From Candidatus Poribacteria bacterium (GTDB lineage: Bacteria > Poribacteria > WGA-4E > WGA-3G), in contig JAJEBZ010000255.1 in NCBI GenBank assembly GCA_022822275.1, positions 1 through 32,124 on the forward strand: 32,124 bases of DNA, read 5' to 3'. The notes under the pieces are model-generated. The model was not told where the DNA came from. It saw nothing but the letters and a program-made list of their open reading frames with translations, and made no database searches. A program made the translations under genes and the position numbers. Below, piece by piece: positions 15,806 to 32,124 of this stretch. The number at the start of each line of letters is the position of its first letter. Position 1 is the first letter of the stretch.

Positions 15806-16969
15806 TCATTTGAATATCGGGTTACATTTATGGTGTTTTCCTAACAGTTCTTTGAAATACTTATCAAGTTTGGTCTCTGTTTGTTCTTTTTCTATCGGTT
15901 TAATCTCAAAATTCTTTTCTAAATAAGGGTGATGTCTAATAGCATCACTGATGAAATAGTGTCTATATTGCTTGAACAACTTATCATCAATTGGGACATC
16001 GCAGTTTCCAAAATAGAAGGGAAGTCTATATATGTTTCTTTTGAACACATCTACATAAGCATAATAATCCAGTTTTGTTTTGTCAAGGACAATCGTGTTT
16101 GTGCTATATTCTTGGACAAAAGTGCGATTTCGCTTTAATGCGTTGATATCCCGCATTGTCCAGAAAAACAGAGAATTATCAGGGACCGGTTGTTGCTGCT
16201 TGCTGGGATACTTGCGAATATAACCTGTTATATAATCAAAATCACTCAAACAGAAACGATTCTTGTCCGCTGTTCTGAAATGAAATGAACGGATATAATC
16301 GTATTCCATTCCCTCAGTATCACGTCTATATAATGCAATGATAATCGGAAATGGCGTATGTTTAGCTGATTCTGGGAATTCCCCGCTACTAATCAGTAAC
16401 CCGTTTATCAGTTTGTAATTTGCAGTAAACTCCTTTAAGTGTCTGAAATTAGTTTGTTTTATCAAGTAAGACAATGGATGTAACACACATATATAATCTG
16501 CTTTCAGTTTATTATAGGAACGGAGAAATGATATTCCCAAGTCCCGACTTACTATATCTTCATCAACGTCGAAGTTAACATTTTTGATCTTGTGTCGTAT
16601 TTGCGATGTTCTATCATTATAGGGTGGGTTTCCTACGACAATCAATCTTTCTGTCTGCTGAGGAATCCCAAATTTTTGTCTTGAAACGTTGGATAAAGCG
16701 TTCGTCCGCAAGAATTGGACGTTATCCGTGTTCTTTTTTGCTCTATCTATTGCATCTTCGTCTATATCACATCCGATTGTGTATGGTTGCCCATAATCTT
16801 TTAGACTGTTTTTTAGAAAGTCACCATATCCACAGGCACTGTCAAGGACAGTCGTTTTCGAATCTATGTGGGATTTAATTAATTCCCATGCCAGTTGGAC
16901 AATTTTAGGTGGCGTATAATAACTTCCCAAGTTGACTCTATCTTCATAGACTAAATGCTTTTGACTCAT
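15806..16969 (-). CDS. N6-adenine DNA methyltransferase (gamma-type motif order)
   Basis: The 387-residue product has the amino-methyltransferase motifs in order: motif X-like LGSYYTPPKIV (14-24), SAM-binding motif I LDSACGYGDF (42-51), acidic motif II GCDIDEDAI (66-74) and catalytic motif IV NPPY (114-117). This order is that of gamma-class N6-adenine methyltransferases (TaqI-like). The C-terminal 200 or so residues would hold the target-recognition part; no nuclease motif is evident in this chain. It starts 5 bases after the preceding 157-residue gene and belongs to the ATPase/small protein/methyltransferase set inside the nuo cluster. It appears AT-richer than the nuo genes by eye. It could be the modification half of a restriction-type system or a solitary methylase. 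Confidence 0.82.
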   Translation of the reverse strand: MSQKHLVYEDRVNLGSYYTPPKIVQLAWELIKSHIDSKTTVLDSACGYGDFLKNSLKDYGQPYTIGCDIDEDAIDRAKKNTDNVQFLRTNALSNVSRQKFGIPQQTERLIVVGNPPYNDRTSQIRHKIKNVNFDVDEDIVSRDLGISFLRSYNKLKADYICVLHPLSYLIKQTNFRHLKEFTANYKLINGLLISSGEFPESAKHTPFPIIIALYRRDTEGMEYDYIRSFHFRTADKNRFCLSDFDYITGYIRKYPSKQQQPVPDNSLFFWTMRDINALKRNRTFVQEYSTNTIVLDKTKLDYYAYVDVFKRNIYRLPFYFGNCDVPIDDKLFKQYRHYFISDAIRHHPYLEKNFEIKPIEKEQTETKLDKYFKELLGKHHKCNPIFK

Positions 16970-16974
16970 TTAAA

Positions 16975-17448
16975 TTACGCAACTGCATTTTTTATGACCG
17001 AATCTGCGTTTAATACAGCACTCGGTCCACGGATACCATTTTTCGCTAATATTAGACGGTATTTACCTCGTTTTACACTTGACGCGGTTTTTCCAGTGGA
17101 AATCCAGTGATAAGAACTCTGACCCTCCAAATTCGCAAGGCTTTTTGCAGAGCGTTTAACCCACTGCTTTAGCCATTCTAATTTTGCTGTGATCTCTCTT
17201 ACTTTGCGCGTATTTTCCGCCGGATGAACTTCAACATAGAAGATGCGATCTTTATAACCGAACACGTAATCCCAACGATGCGCGTTCGGATAAAGTTTTG
17301 TAAGACACGTATCTATATCAACGCTTCCTGCCAAATCACGTGTTGAACTTGCCTCTATTTTTCTGCTATTTGTCCCCAATGCCTGTAACCCTTTTCTTAG
17401 GCAGTTAGCAATTTCGGGAATACTCTGAACAACGTCGGCAAAATTCAT
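16975..17448 (-). CDS. Uncharacterised protein, possible PD-(D/E)xK-like fold
   Basis: I do not recognise the 157-residue product as a named family. A central segment (residues about 59-80: RWDYVFGYKDRIFYVEVHPA) has the look of two adjacent strands carrying Asp and Glu, as in PD-(D/E)xK nucleases. The usual Lys of the ExK motif is His (EVH), so catalysis is uncertain. A helix with ITAKLEWLKQWVKR follows. Its ATG overlaps the ATPase stop by 4 bases (ATGA) and its stop is 5 bases before the methyltransferase start. Strict coupling to both suggests a three-part system in which this would be the effector or an adaptor. Confidence 0.55.
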   Translation of the reverse strand: MNFADVVQSIPEIANCLRKGLQALGTNSRKIEASSTRDLAGSVDIDTCLTKLYPNAHRWDYVFGYKDRIFYVEVHPAENTRKVREITAKLEWLKQWVKRSAKSLANLEGQSSYHWISTGKTASSVKRGKYRLILAKNGIRGPSAVLNADSVIKNAVA

Positions 17449-18596
17449 GTGTTACTCTCCCATACAGCTTCTGTAACAATATCAGCTGCCTTCGTGCTAA
17501 AGAGTGTAAGTCCACCCCAATCTGATACAGCTGCATCAGGGTCTTCCGGATCTAACTTTGAAATGTCCTTGACCTCTACAACACCATCCTGCCGAGAAAA
17601 ATAATAAGTTTTGAACGTCTTTTTGTGTATGATGGTATCAGTAAGATCATAGGTAAAGGCTTTCGGTTTCAAATCCAGCAAATCCCTTAACCGTGATGCA
17701 GCGTTTTTGGATTTGGCAATGAGCTGAATTGCCCAGATAAGTTCCAAAACTTGCGGTGAATGAGTGGAAACAATGACTTTGTACCCTCGCCTTAAAAGTT
17801 CTAAAAAAATAAGCAGCAGAGCTGAGATCGCTTTGGGATGTAATCCCATTTCCGGTTCTTCAATAACAACCCAGTTGATGTTATTTCTCTTTTGAGCTTT
17901 TCCTGAAGGCATTAACCGGTACAGTCCCAGTAAAAGTGGCGCGAATTCTCTCTGACCTGTAGACCAAACCATAAACGGCAGTTGGGTCCCCGCAACATCT
18001 AAAATAATGCGTTTACGTAATCCCGACCTATCCAATTTGACCTCACCCTTTCCAAAGATACTTGTCCCAATTGCATCTCGGACTGTTTTGTTCATACGAC
18101 CTTCTTGTGGAAAAATAGCACCCTTACCTGATCCTAAACCTGCTTCCATTAATAGACGCAATTGTTCGCTAAATTCCTTAACCACGTACGGATCGCTCGT
18201 TCCATAGTCGGTAAAAGCGCGCGGCCACCCATCTTTGAGTGTTACAACTCTGTGTGCTGGTATCAGAAAAAGACTTTCATTTTTCTTTCTCTTTGATAAC
18301 GCATTTTGAGGTGTAAAATCCGCTTTGTCAATGGTGACTTTCGTCTCATCTTTGTTCCAAACCGTTTCCATTCCTTCACCGAAATAAAGGGACAAAAAAT
18401 TCTCAACTTTTTTTTGCCAATCAAACCCATGTTTTTTGAGGGTTTGTGTAATATCACCTGCGTCTGAAATTAACTTCACAAGTTGAAGTACAATGCTCTT
18501 TCCGCTTGCTTGTTCCCCAACAAAGATCGTCATATCTCCAAAGATAATATCGGCTTCACGGATTTGCCCCAAGGAAGTTAGTGTAAGACGCTTCAT
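17445..18596 (-). CDS. ABC/OLD-like AAA ATPase
   Basis: The 383-residue product is an ABC-type ATPase of the AAA_15/AAA_21 kind: Walker A GEQASGKS (27-34), signature-like STGQRE (212-217), Walker B WVVIEEPEMGLHP (242-254) and the switch His in STHSPQ (277-282). No C-terminal TOPRIM nuclease is visible, unlike full OLD proteins. Such ATPases are sensors or motors in several anti-phage systems (PARIS AriA, Septu PtuA, Gabija GajA in part), and here the partner is a different small protein. It starts 78 bases after the nuoL stop, with GGAACAGGA before the ATG, and leads the inserted set. Confidence 0.8.
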   Translation of the reverse strand: MKRLTLTSLGQIREADIIFGDMTIFVGEQASGKSIVLQLVKLISDAGDITQTLKKHGFDWQKKVENFLSLYFGEGMETVWNKDETKVTIDKADFTPQNALSKRKKNESLFLIPAHRVVTLKDGWPRAFTDYGTSDPYVVKEFSEQLRLLMEAGLGSGKGAIFPQEGRMNKTVRDAIGTSIFGKGEVKLDRSGLRKRIILDVAGTQLPFMVWSTGQREFAPLLLGLYRLMPSGKAQKRNNINWVVIEEPEMGLHPKAISALLLIFLELLRRGYKVIVSTHSPQVLELIWAIQLIAKSKNAASRLRDLLDLKPKAFTYDLTDTIIHKKTFKTYYFSRQDGVVEVKDISKLDPEDPDAAVSDWGGLTLFSTKAADIVTEAVWESNT

Positions 18597-28675: not shown

Positions 28676-29872
28676 CTACCTATCCAACTCCCCCGCAATC
28701 ACGTTCAAACTCCCTAACACAGCCACCGTATCCGATACCATACCGCCCTCCAGCATGTGCGGCAGTGCTTGAAAGTGAAAAAAACTTGGTGGACGAATTC
28801 TAATGCGATAGGCAGTTCCACTCCCATCACTCACAATGTAAAATCCCAATTCTCCATTTGGTGATTCCGTAGCACAATAATGATCACCTAATGGCGGTTG
28901 TACACCGTGCCCATCCATTACAATCTTAAAATGATGAATTAACCCCTCAATATGTCCATACGCATCCGATTTGTCTGGCATCATGATTTTATTATCTTCT
29001 ACGCAATACGGACCTTCTGGCAGGTTATCTAACGCCTGTTGGACGATACCACAACTCTGGATCATCTCCTCCATTCGCACCAAATATCGGTCATAAACAT
29101 CACCGTTAGTACCAACTGGTACATCAAATTTCATTTCATTGTAAGAGGAATACGGCTCAGCCTTGCGGATATCGTGTGAGACACCGGTTGCACGCAAACA
29201 GGGACCAGTCAACCCATAATTAATTGCATCTTCGGGAGAAATTGCCCCAACGCCTTTTGTCCTATCCATCCAAATCCGGTTGCGGGTTAGCAATGTATGT
29301 GTTTCCTTCAGTGCCTTGGGTAAATTGGTTATGAAATCCCGAGCATCAGTTTCAAACCCGTCATAGAGGTCGCGGAATACACCTCCGACACGCGTGTAAC
29401 TTGTTGTCAACCGCGCGCCAGTTGTCTTTTCAAATATGCTATAGAGTTTTTCGCGTTCACGGAAACTATACAGAAACACAGAAAACGCACCTAAATCCAA
29501 CGCTGCAGTGCCAAGCCACAACAGGTGGTCTGCCAAACGAGAAAGTTCTGCCATCAAAATACGGATATATTGACACCGTTTCGGCACTTCAATACCAAGT
29601 AATTGTTCCACCGCAAGCACATATCCGAAATTGTTAGACAACGGTGACAGATAATTCATCCGATCTGTTACGACTATATACTGGTTATAATCCAGATGCT
29701 CACCCAGTTTTTCAAAACCGGTATGTAAGTAGCCGGCATGGGGGATCGCCTTCAAAACGGTTTCACCGTCAAGTTCTAAGACGATCCGAAGTGTACCGTG
29801 CGTTGCAGGGTGTTGCGGTCCGAAGTTGAGAACCATCTTTTCGCCTGTAGTGCGTTCCATCCCAGCTTGCAT
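28676..29872 (-). CDS. nuoD: NADH-quinone oxidoreductase subunit D
   Basis: NuoD forms the quinone-binding side of the hydrophilic arm (49-kDa subunit). The 398-residue product has the classical NFGPQHPATHGTLRIVLELD at the N-terminus, GYLHTGFEKLGEH, DRMNYLSPLSNNFGYVLAVE, and the C-terminal stretch ending SLNVIAGELDR as in the family. AAGGAG (29879-29884) lies 6 bases before the ATG. It is not fused to nuoC. Neither nuoC nor nuoA/B is upstream: the next gene is an unrelated restriction-like gene, so nuoD is the first complex I gene here. Confidence 0.98.
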   Translation of the reverse strand: MQAGMERTTGEKMVLNFGPQHPATHGTLRIVLELDGETVLKAIPHAGYLHTGFEKLGEHLDYNQYIVVTDRMNYLSPLSNNFGYVLAVEQLLGIEVPKRCQYIRILMAELSRLADHLLWLGTAALDLGAFSVFLYSFREREKLYSIFEKTTGARLTTSYTRVGGVFRDLYDGFETDARDFITNLPKALKETHTLLTRNRIWMDRTKGVGAISPEDAINYGLTGPCLRATGVSHDIRKAEPYSSYNEMKFDVPVGTNGDVYDRYLVRMEEMIQSCGIVQQALDNLPEGPYCVEDNKIMMPDKSDAYGHIEGLIHHFKIVMDGHGVQPPLGDHYCATESPNGELGFYIVSDGSGTAYRIRIRPPSFFHFQALPHMLEGGMVSDTVAVLGSLNVIAGELDR

Positions 29873-30118: not shown

Positions 30119-32124
30119 TCAATGTATACTCTTTTTGACTTTCACATTGATAGCAGCAGGACTTTTTCCTTCCTCAGCTTCTGCTATATTAAATTCTATC
30201 GGGTACCCTTCTCGTAACAAATTAATATCCTTTGATGGAACTTGAGATTTATGCAAATAAATATCAGCAGGATAGTCTCTGGATGTTAGGAAACCCGACC
30301 CTTTCTCTGAGTCATAAAACTTTATTTTGCCCTGATATAACTGTCCTGTTGTTATTGGTTGCACATTAGACGTTTCGAAATATGAATGTTTATCTTGTTG
30401 TATTATTCGTAGGGTAAATTTTACTTTCAGATTTGGGAGTAACTTTCTTGAAGTAATGCTTGGATTTAAAGAAGCTGATTGTACCTTAAGACTCTGCGGT
30501 AGTTCGGTTTCTTGAGGTAATTCATCAACAATATCGCTAAACTCTAAGTATCCGTATAAATCATCTGTCCCCCATTTTTTCACGATACCACTTAGTTCTT
30601 CTATTCTAAGCTCAATTATACTTGTTCTGAATATTATTACGTCACAATTTTTAATTGTCAGATAAATTGCATCATTGTCAAAGTATTTTATCATTCCGGG
30701 AAATTCACGTCCGAAACTTGTAATCACTTTAATTACGAAATTATTTTGTAGAGCAAATTCAAGAATAAAGTCATCGAACTGAAGTTGTGAAGTAGATTCT
30801 GTGTTAAGGGTAGAAACCCGGACAAAAGTATTATATAGAAGATTTTGCCAATCATTTGCTGAACAAATGAATAGAATATCTTGTTTTGTCAATTCATGCT
30901 CTTCATTATTGCTGTCAAAACCCCTAATTTGGCTTTGTCGGATGACTTTAATTCTTGACAAAACTTTAACAGTATCTTTCTCAAAACATGTTTCAAACCT
31001 AATAGGTTGATACACATCTGATTGAAGCATTGAAATCCATTTTGGAAATGCAGTTCCTGAAGTACTATTTGGAAATGCAGTTCCTGAGGTACTAATAGAG
31101 TCATTTTTATTAAATTTTCCAACAGTTTTAGTAAAGTGCTCTACAGGTTTCCATAATTTAAAAAAACATGAAAGTAAATCTTTTTTTCTGTCGTTTATTT
31201 GAATTTGTGTCCATTTTTTGTGATTACAGATTTCCTTGTTTAGCAATAGACGCGCGTTTTCAGGTTCTTCTAAGAACATTTTTTGTTCATCAAATGAATT
31301 AATCCCGGGTCTAGTCACACCACTTGTACATAAGGTAAAATTTCCAGGACTAGCCCAGGGATCTTTACCTAATTTTTTAGAATTGATCATCCATTCACGA
31401 AAAGAAAACGAAGAACGAAATTCTTCAAAGTCAAATCCCAACGGATCTTCTCCGATTTCTTGTCTCTTCAAATTTTCAATACGATAGTAGATATAACTTT
31501 CAGCAAAATACAACCTCTCTTTAAACCTTGGACCTGAATGATCTTCTCGGAGCTTACCACGTTTAAATTGTTCTGAAACTTCAAAGTTTGATTTCCATCT
31601 TCTTTTTCCTTTCCTTGAGAAAAATCCAATGAGATCGTCAACGGTAAATGAACGCCCACTGACTATCTCATTAAGGTAAATTGCAATCGTTTCATAAGCG
31701 TAACTGTAATCGGCAGGCTCCACCAATAAACGGCGAGCTATATAAGATTCCAAAATCTCAAATGCTGTGTAGATCTTTTCTTCGGATATTTCTAATTCGT
31801 TTTTTAAATGCAATATGAATGATTGCACACATGCGATATTTTCATTATGTTGAAATCCAGTTTCGGAATAGTTGTTATCTTCCTTTTCTAATATACTTAA
31901 ATCTTTATGAAATTGCATTCGAGAACCAATTTTAGAATCAGGATTATCCAGTTCTGCAAAAGTTTCTGCATAAATTTTCAATTGATCTATCTCATGTTTA
32001 GGAATTTGTTTGGCCTTCGGCAGTTTTGGAAGATGTTCTCTCTGATATAGATCAAATAATTTCGTATCGTTGTGGAAAACCTTAGAAGGACCAAGTTTTG
32101 CAATGAGAAAAACACCAAAGAAAT
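30119..32124 (-). CDS. GmrSD/DUF1524-like protein with Sm-like and cold-shock domains, 5' end beyond window
   Basis: The frame is open from the stop at 30119 to the window edge (no stop codon in the last 143 bases), so the in-frame TTG at 31981 is probably not the start and the N-terminus is missing. Residue numbers here count from that TTG. About 115-270 resemble the DUF1524 part of GmrSD type IV restriction proteins: SYIYYRIENL, GNFTLCTSG, then LLLNKEICNHKKWTQIQIND with a following RKKDLL. The usual histidine motif (like EHILPQ) is not seen. Residues 402-463 (FDDFILEFALQNNFVIKVIT, G.I..FD, then a final strand) look like an Hfq/Sm fold. Residues 548-620 are a cold-shock domain with KGSGFL and DIYLHKS. 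A DUF262 domain would be expected upstream, outside the window. Confidence 0.6.
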   Translation of the reverse strand, partial: FFGVFLIAKLGPSKVFHNDTKLFDLYQREHLPKLPKAKQIPKHEIDQLKIYAETFAELDNPDSKIGSRMQFHKDLSILEKEDNNYSETGFQHNENIACVQSFILHLKNELEISEEKIYTAFEILESYIARRLLVEPADYSYAYETIAIYLNEIVSGRSFTVDDLIGFFSRKGKRRWKSNFEVSEQFKRGKLREDHSGPRFKERLYFAESYIYYRIENLKRQEIGEDPLGFDFEEFRSSFSFREWMINSKKLGKDPWASPGNFTLCTSGVTRPGINSFDEQKMFLEEPENARLLLNKEICNHKKWTQIQINDRKKDLLSCFFKLWKPVEHFTKTVGKFNKNDSISTSGTAFPNSTSGTAFPKWISMLQSDVYQPIRFETCFEKDTVKVLSRIKVIRQSQIRGFDSNNEEHELTKQDILFICSANDWQNLLYNTFVRVSTLNTESTSQLQFDDFILEFALQNNFVIKVITSFGREFPGMIKYFDNDAIYLTIKNCDVIIFRTSIIELRIEELSGIVKKWGTDDLYGYLEFSDIVDELPQETELPQSLKVQSASLNPSITSRKLLPNLKVKFTLRIIQQDKHSYFETSNVQPITTGQLYQGKIKFYDSEKGSGFLTSRDYPADIYLHKSQVPSKDINLLREGYPIEFNIAEAEEGKSPAAINVKVKKSIH
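31041..31094. repeat. Two tandem 27-bp units inside the GmrSD-like gene
   Basis: 31041-31067 and 31068-31094 are identical at 26 of 27 bases. In frame, they encode STSGTAFPN followed by STSGTAFPK. This is a recent in-frame duplication in a low-constraint linker between the DUF1524-like and Sm-like regions. Confidence 0.85.

Follow-up and report, generated by a model that had tools for sequence, protein, structure and literature searches.

The window, by which we mean the whole stretch of DNA analysed, is the entire contig C26 (32124 bp) of a 320-contig genome, and its last gene encodes a GmrSD-family protein (30119..32122, minus strand). The reading frame of this gene spans 667 visible codons (667 aa) without a start codon inside the window, its 5' end being beyond the contig edge, and the interval 30119-31981 is merely the first-TTG reading of the same frame. 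Directly downstream lies nuoD (28676..29872, minus strand), and nuoC is found on contig C159, which terminates 87 bp past the nuoC stop codon. From the synteny of nuoC and nuoD we infer a join between C159 and C26, which are unassembled with respect to each other. Since nuoC and nuoD flank the GmrSD gene here and are spaced 49-860 bp apart in 14 congeners, the gene is, judging from this gene order, an accessory insertion interrupting nuoC-nuoD of the nuo operon. A second insertion in this operon occupies the nuoL/nuoM interval (window 15806-18596, minus strand) and consists of three genes, encoding a PDC-M56A-type AAA ATPase (PADLOC 5e-156), a 157-aa protein that resembles the PDC-M56B-type partner found in locus L044, and a type II methyltransferase-like protein (1.5e-88). 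A similar pair of ATPase and small protein is also present upstream of the L044 GmrSD gene pair.

In full-length homologues, the positions aligned with residue 1 of the visible frame range over residues 271-343, and about 285 N-terminal residues, corresponding to the DUF262 domain, are therefore absent from the window gene. The DUF262 domain with its (I/V)DGQQR motif is not visible for this gene owing to the contig edge, and is on no other contig of the genome. A PF03235 search for the N-terminus elsewhere in the genome returned four other GmrSD_N genes, none of which runs into the window gene; the one on C7 terminates at its own stop codon and those on C198, C80 and C308 are contig-internal or complete. 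Given its presence in the full-length homologues, a DUF262 domain probably lies upstream of the visible part. A tail-less partner gene, of the kind described below for the homologues, was searched for in this genome and not found.

The visible protein begins with a helical linker and a degenerate DUF1524 (GmrD-like) region (residues 1-316; 31175..32122, minus strand), for which blastp finds L036_7590 (E=4e-57) and L037 (E=1e-54). PADLOC matches this core to the C-terminal part of the GmrSD-like models Orf5 (2.2e-6) and HEC-06 (4.4e-5). Among the four GmrD motifs defined by Machnicka et al. (PMC4619093), motif 4 (WxxxxIxxRxxxLxxxxxxIW) is conserved at residues 304-324 (WTQIQINDRKKDLLSCFFKLW; 31151..31213, minus strand). 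Motif 4, the homology over the linker and DUF1524 region, and the PADLOC and homologue matches together bear out the GmrSD-family membership proposed in the earlier note. Motif 1 (EHxxP, more fully (E/D)H(I/L/V)xPQ), which carries the catalytic His, is missing; the counterpart of the GmrSD (E/D)H(I/L/V)xPQ...GN segment is a degenerate HNH site, FREWMINSKKLGKDPWASPGN (31340..31402, minus strand), with no catalytic His. Motifs 2 and 3 (GNLxLLxxxN and NxxFxxKK) are not matched in full either, as PGNFTLCTSGVTRPGINSFDEQK keeps GN without the catalytic Asn and motif 2 is reduced to PGNFTLC, without its Asn. Thus, the DUF1524-type signatures described earlier hold for motif 4 but not for motif 1, which is absent, or for motif 2, which lacks its Asn.

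The rest of the protein is a tail of predicted nucleic acid-binding domains. The linker immediately before its Sm-like part carries a 27-bp tandem repeat in two copies (window 31031-31084; STSGTAFPN / STSGTAFPK). A first Sm-like barrel (residues ~370-428; 30839..31015, minus strand), named by no Pfam model, is predicted by AF2 as a five-strand sheet, with pLDDT of ~60-72 in the window model and 81-85 in the model of the homologue L065. It is followed by a Hfq (Sm) domain (residues 444-510; 30593..30793, minus strand), identified by Pfam, homologues, PDB profile and fold match. PF17209 (Hfq) matches residues 451-502 of the window protein with E=0.086 and 12.9 bits, below the cut-off of 27; the call is marginal in the window alone, and the homologues that lie above the cut-off are decisive, namely L038 (1.8e-6, 27.9 bits, at the same position) and L084 (7.8e-10, 38.7 bits, in a protein that also has GmrSD_N, 4.4e-35, and GmrSD_C, 1.1e-19). 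A profile built on five GmrSD rows, of which four have a Hfq tail, matched the PDB entries of B. subtilis Hfq (2.6e-4), Aquifex Hfq (0.004) and cold-shock proteins (~1e-10); cold-shock proteins and DUF262 proteins each match their own part of the profile. The two AF2 models were made from thin alignments and have mean pLDDT of 49 (window) and 55, and only the Sm part of the window-only model, which is poor overall, was used. In these models the Hfq region is predicted to form a helix and five strands (pLDDT 70-86), as in the Sm fold, and Foldseek superimposes it on Hfq chains with TM(target) of 0.8-0.9 and an rmsd of ~0.8 Å over ~59 residues (probability 1.00); the accompanying E of ~0.01-0.02 is weak because the match is short. 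The Hfq/Sm-like domain of the earlier note, which a profile search or a structure prediction was expected to recover, has therefore been recovered by both.

The fused Hfq keeps the Sm1 G-x-I-x-x-FD spacing, with FD at 39-40, and the strand layout. On the proximal face, the window Hfq has D and T in place of F42 and H57 (E. coli numbering), and its YKHA motif is FRTS, so that the canonical proximal U-binding residues (F42, YKH) are replaced by D and FRT; in L084 they are Y and YKH. As F42 and YKHA are lost, Hfq-type binding of U-rich RNA is not to be assumed. Between the Hfq domain and the C-terminus, alignment reveals a degenerate, extra cold-shock-like OB domain (residues 512-585; 30368..30589, minus strand) on which Pfam is silent in the window protein; L039 shares this stretch between its Hfq and last cold-shock domain (CSD), where a CSD HMM matches residues 793-866 with E=4e-3. 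The protein ends in a cold-shock domain proper (residues 593-663; 30134..30346, minus strand) with RNP1-like KGSGFL and RNP2-like DIYLHKS, one Phe of RNP1 being replaced by Ser. PF00313 (CSD) matches residues 597-661 with 7.6e-10 and 39 bits against a cut-off of 27, in agreement with the cold-shock domain reported from the first reading.

Relatives were sought in 85 Poribacteria genomes. The full-length relatives L038, L039, L040 and L041 (884-940 aa) share the order GmrSD_N (1e-29 to 1e-35), DUF1524-like region, Hfq-like segment and CSD (6.3e-15 in L038), with the Hfq part of L039 assigned by alignment and a custom HMM, not by Pfam. L048 (1126 aa) has two Hfq+CSD units, and the window architecture thus recurs in five other assemblies (L038-L041, L048); homologues with the order DUF262, DUF1524-like, Sm/Hfq and CSD, which the earlier note had suggested looking for, do exist. 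In L036_7590 and L037_7700 three or seven S1 domains replace Hfq+CSD. The CSD of L036_2594 is slightly below the Pfam cut-off (3.8e-5, 23.9 bits), and its sisters L043 and L044 have C-terminal ends that are CSD-like by eye and have no Pfam name. The tail types among the relatives are therefore CSD, Hfq+CSD, 2x(Hfq+CSD), 3xS1 and 7xS1, all of them RNA/ssNA-binding folds.

The closest loci, including some of the same architecture, are in public Poribacteria records, which identifies the organism as Candidatus Poribacteria; a contig scan by alignment retrieved three Poribacteria records and one ordinary cold-shock protein of Mucilaginibacter, and a single-sequence scan of genome contigs found no relatives outside Poribacteria. 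None were found in the viral contigs searched, and tblastn against plasmids yielded DUF262 cores only, never the tail. Among the open-licence papers searched, none describes Hfq, CSD or S1 domains attached to a DUF262/DUF1524 protein. This agrees with the earlier note, to which no named system of this architecture was known, and the design is apparently undescribed.

Sm/Hfq-like segments also occur in other Poribacteria proteins. One such protein, which starts with a CSD and ends in a Hfq-like part, is encoded at L006:766-1692 (minus strand) and on contig C256 of the window's genome (G000:C256; 308 aa), and CSD+Hfq-like frames of 308-355 aa are present in most of the surveyed Poribacteria genomes. 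This ordinary-size protein perhaps serves as the phylum's own cellular Hfq and could be one origin of the tails on GmrSD proteins. The same Sm/Hfq-like segment is also found at the N- or C-terminus of Sacsin/HSP90-type ATPases 1208-1284 aa long (L049:7077-10703, L050:10004-13858, L051:4003-7779). A 355-aa protein at L053:278-1345 combines S1 domains, the Sm/Hfq-like segment and a CSD, and perhaps represents a tail that stands alone or has broken off.

A tree of 79 Poribacteria GmrSD rows places the window protein in a 33-row clade (local support 99) that has two parts. In the sister clade EHxxP is kept in all 14 proteins that have the region, and in the 18-protein clade of the window it is gone from the window protein and from 15 of the 16 other members that have the region. 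L048 is ambiguous at the HNH site, where LDHIDH supplies a His without the Pro and without the following Asn; in L041 a His is displaced by two residues, and its sister L040 has none. In the 33-row tree the support for the HNH-dead clade is 96/80 with L048 and 98/98 without it, and, with L048 scored among the losses, a single change on the tree accounts for the missing site. DGQQR is retained in 17/17 clade members with a visible N-terminus. The nuclease site thus appears, from these motif comparisons, to have been lost in the window's clade, and the term restriction-like, if taken to mean that the protein cuts DNA as GmrSD enzymes do, is not sustained, the HNH His and Asn being missing in the window and its clade. 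A first assumption, that only HNH-dead proteins have tails, was refuted by three EHxxP-containing, HNH-intact proteins of the sister clade, L042 and L046 with CSD and L084 with Hfq; hence the tail does not demand loss of the nuclease.

Seven tandem, same-strand pairs of HNH-dead genes, with gaps of 44-223 bp, are present in six genomes (two pairs in L036 and one each in L037, L038, L041, L043 and L044); the two proteins of the L041 pair measure 597 and 892 aa. The order within the pairs is constant, with a tail-less gene first and a tailed (CSD, Hfq+CSD or S1) gene second; neither member keeps the HNH site, and the DUF1524 region is more degenerate still in the tandem partners. An adjacent second DUF262 gene accompanies 7/8 tailed clade members with upstream sequence, a count that leaves out L039, L040 and the window, where the upstream DNA is unassembled; the exception is L048, which is single, with no partner. 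In L036 a truncated histone-deacetylase-like gene (L036:5033-5578; 180/312 aa matched) separates the two GmrSD pairs, as if it had been split by the insertion of a pair.

The core of the window protein is nearest to the S1-tailed proteins of L036 and L037 (37% identity, 4e-57; tree support 100/99) and its tail to that of L039 (Hfq+CSD+CSD; 35%, 3e-48). A single origin of the Hfq-tailed cores was rejected by the AU test (monophyly of five cores, p-AU 0.009), in which the Hfq group was defined by tail and the window row covers just half of the columns. As the core and tail of the window protein have different nearest relatives and the monophyly of the Hfq cores is rejected, tails are, on these comparisons, swapped among cores. 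A site at ubiE(-pheT-pheS), with pheT-pheS recorded where visible, harbors CSD, 3xS1 and 7xS1 pairs and a nearby Hfq+CSD gene in four genomes (L036, L037, L039, L044), and the GmrSD genes of L038 and L040 are near trpA. Defence genes in the vicinity include a ThsB-like TIR gene (L038), a type IIG R-M system (L041), PDC-M56A/B (L044), Cas6 (L048) and, in the window, PDC-M56A and a type II methyltransferase within the same nuo operon; none is a constant neighbor across the loci. In L048 (3715-13999), Cas6 (2.7e-91) and RAMP-like genes are ~3.4 kb away from the GmrSD gene with two Hfq+CSD units. Since plasmids yield the core only and no defence gene is constantly adjacent, the design may be lineage-restricted.

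We hypothesize, with a probability of about 0.4, that the window gene is the tailed component of a GmrSD-derived accessory module in Poribacteria that probably comprises two genes. This module, on our reading, has kept the DUF262 NTP site, lost the HNH site and gained a swappable RNA/ssNA-binding tail, and would exert an RNA-directed block as against DNA restriction. Going beyond the domains, the HNH motif loss, the homologue pairing, the tail swapping and the accessory insertion described above, we propose that two GmrSD paralogues would form a hetero-oligomer in which the tail (Sm-like, Hfq, CSD-like and CSD in the window protein) would bind RNA or exposed single strands, candidates being the transcripts of phages and RNA present where a process has stalled or been hijacked. 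Engagement of the tail would be coupled to NTP binding or hydrolysis by DUF262, and the output would be the holding, remodelling or handing over of the bound RNA with no cutting of DNA by DUF1524; transcripts might be sequestered, translation blocked or RNA handed to host RNases, in what would be an anti-phage role. RNA binding is not assured, as ssDNA is likewise a ligand of CSDs and equivalents of F42 and H57 are missing from the fused Hfq. More tentatively, and well short of even odds, the family could be a two-protein, nuclease-dead one whose DUF262 NTPase is connected to exchangeable modules for RNA binding (Hfq/Sm, CSD, S1 arrays), a restriction scaffold turned into an RNA-sensing or -silencing anti-phage machine that gains specificity through tail swaps, often at a fixed chromosomal site.

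It is also conceivable, though in our estimation unlikely, that the protein is a working modification-dependent or RNA-directed nuclease, in which a non-canonical DUF1524 site, DUF262 (ParB/Srx) or a partner nuclease cuts and the tail only targets. It has been suggested that proteins of the DUF262 fold can themselves act as nucleases (PMC4619093), and the HNH-intact proteins with CSD or Hfq tails show that tail and nuclease are viable together. However, the HNH His and Asn are lost clade-wide, the tandem partners are more degenerate in DUF1524, and no conserved nuclease gene lies beside the pairs. Rather improbable is a housekeeping or regulatory RNA-binding protein, such as an RNA chaperone or translational regulator, built on a co-opted dead GmrSD scaffold with no defence role: Sm, S1 and CSD folds are typical of RNA regulators and the ordinary-size CSD+Hfq-like protein, which this genome itself encodes, is a possible source of the tail, but the patchy distribution, the insertion into the nuo operon and the exchange of pairs with different tails at the same site are typical of accessory or defence genes, and R-M, TIR, PDC-M56 or Cas genes are neighbors. 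That a decaying restriction gene, or domains joined by chance or misassembly, explains the locus is very hard to credit, for while the gene in the window runs up to the edge of its contig in a 320-contig genome and has lost its HNH residues, the frame is open throughout, simple decay is disfavoured by the selective loss of the HNH site with DGQQR intact clade-wide, and independent homologues of the same architecture, including public records, already contradict it.

The preferred reading, an RNA-directed two-gene module, can be set against known systems. The window Hfq resembles bacterial Hfq in its Sm1 spacing, FD, strand layout and TM(target) of up to 0.9, and differs in being fused, with one copy per chain, and in its substituted proximal-face residues. 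PADLOC HEC-06 and Orf5 are the top matches of the homologue cores (PDLC02693, PDLC04155, PDLC04157), but these models are of 530-601 aa and tail-less, and HEC-06 GmrSD-like proteins have been described as single-acting (PMC11411939). The phosphorothioate-sensing DUF262-DUF1524 proteins SspE and DndI are the nearest solved relatives by profile and fold (9jfl, from the DndI system, 6e-20 and Foldseek 2.9e-6; SspE 6jiv, 5.7e-4); they lack an RNA-binding tail and act on DNA via an intact DUF1524, and no dnd or ssp genes were noticed at the loci examined. TgvAB of Vibrio cholerae is likewise a two-protein GmrSD system, in which both DUF262 domains are needed, such that GmrSD can act as an obligate pair (PMC11411939); TgvB, however, requires the HNH residues His571 and Asn602, whereas the Poribacteria pairs are HNH-less and one member has an RNA-binding tail. 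With the GmrSD type IV enzymes Eco94GmrSD and BrxU the family shares the order DUF262, helical linker and DUF1524, DGQQR in the homologues and GmrD motif 4, but the Poribacteria clade is without the HNH His and Asn, and the additional domains catalogued for the family (DUF4268, DUF4357, DNA_binding_1) do not include a Sm/Hfq or CSD tail (PMC4619093). GmrSD proteins are usually regarded as modified-DNA nucleases; chimeras with different tails on related cores, along with the nuclease-intact sister clade, offer a natural test set. The McrBC-derived CoCoNuTs, predicted RNA-targeting type IV systems, have an unrelated scaffold (the McrB GTPase) and mostly HEPN RNases, unlike the Poribacteria systems, which have no HEPN, but are similar in having a DNA-restriction scaffold, CSD-like OB folds and a predicted RNA switch (PMC11090510). 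If a whole clade has indeed dropped the nuclease, kept the NTP site, paired up and come to trade RNA-binding tails, DUF262 would be an NTP switch of general use, with RNA among its possible targets, in parallel with the RNA turn proposed for these McrBC-type systems.
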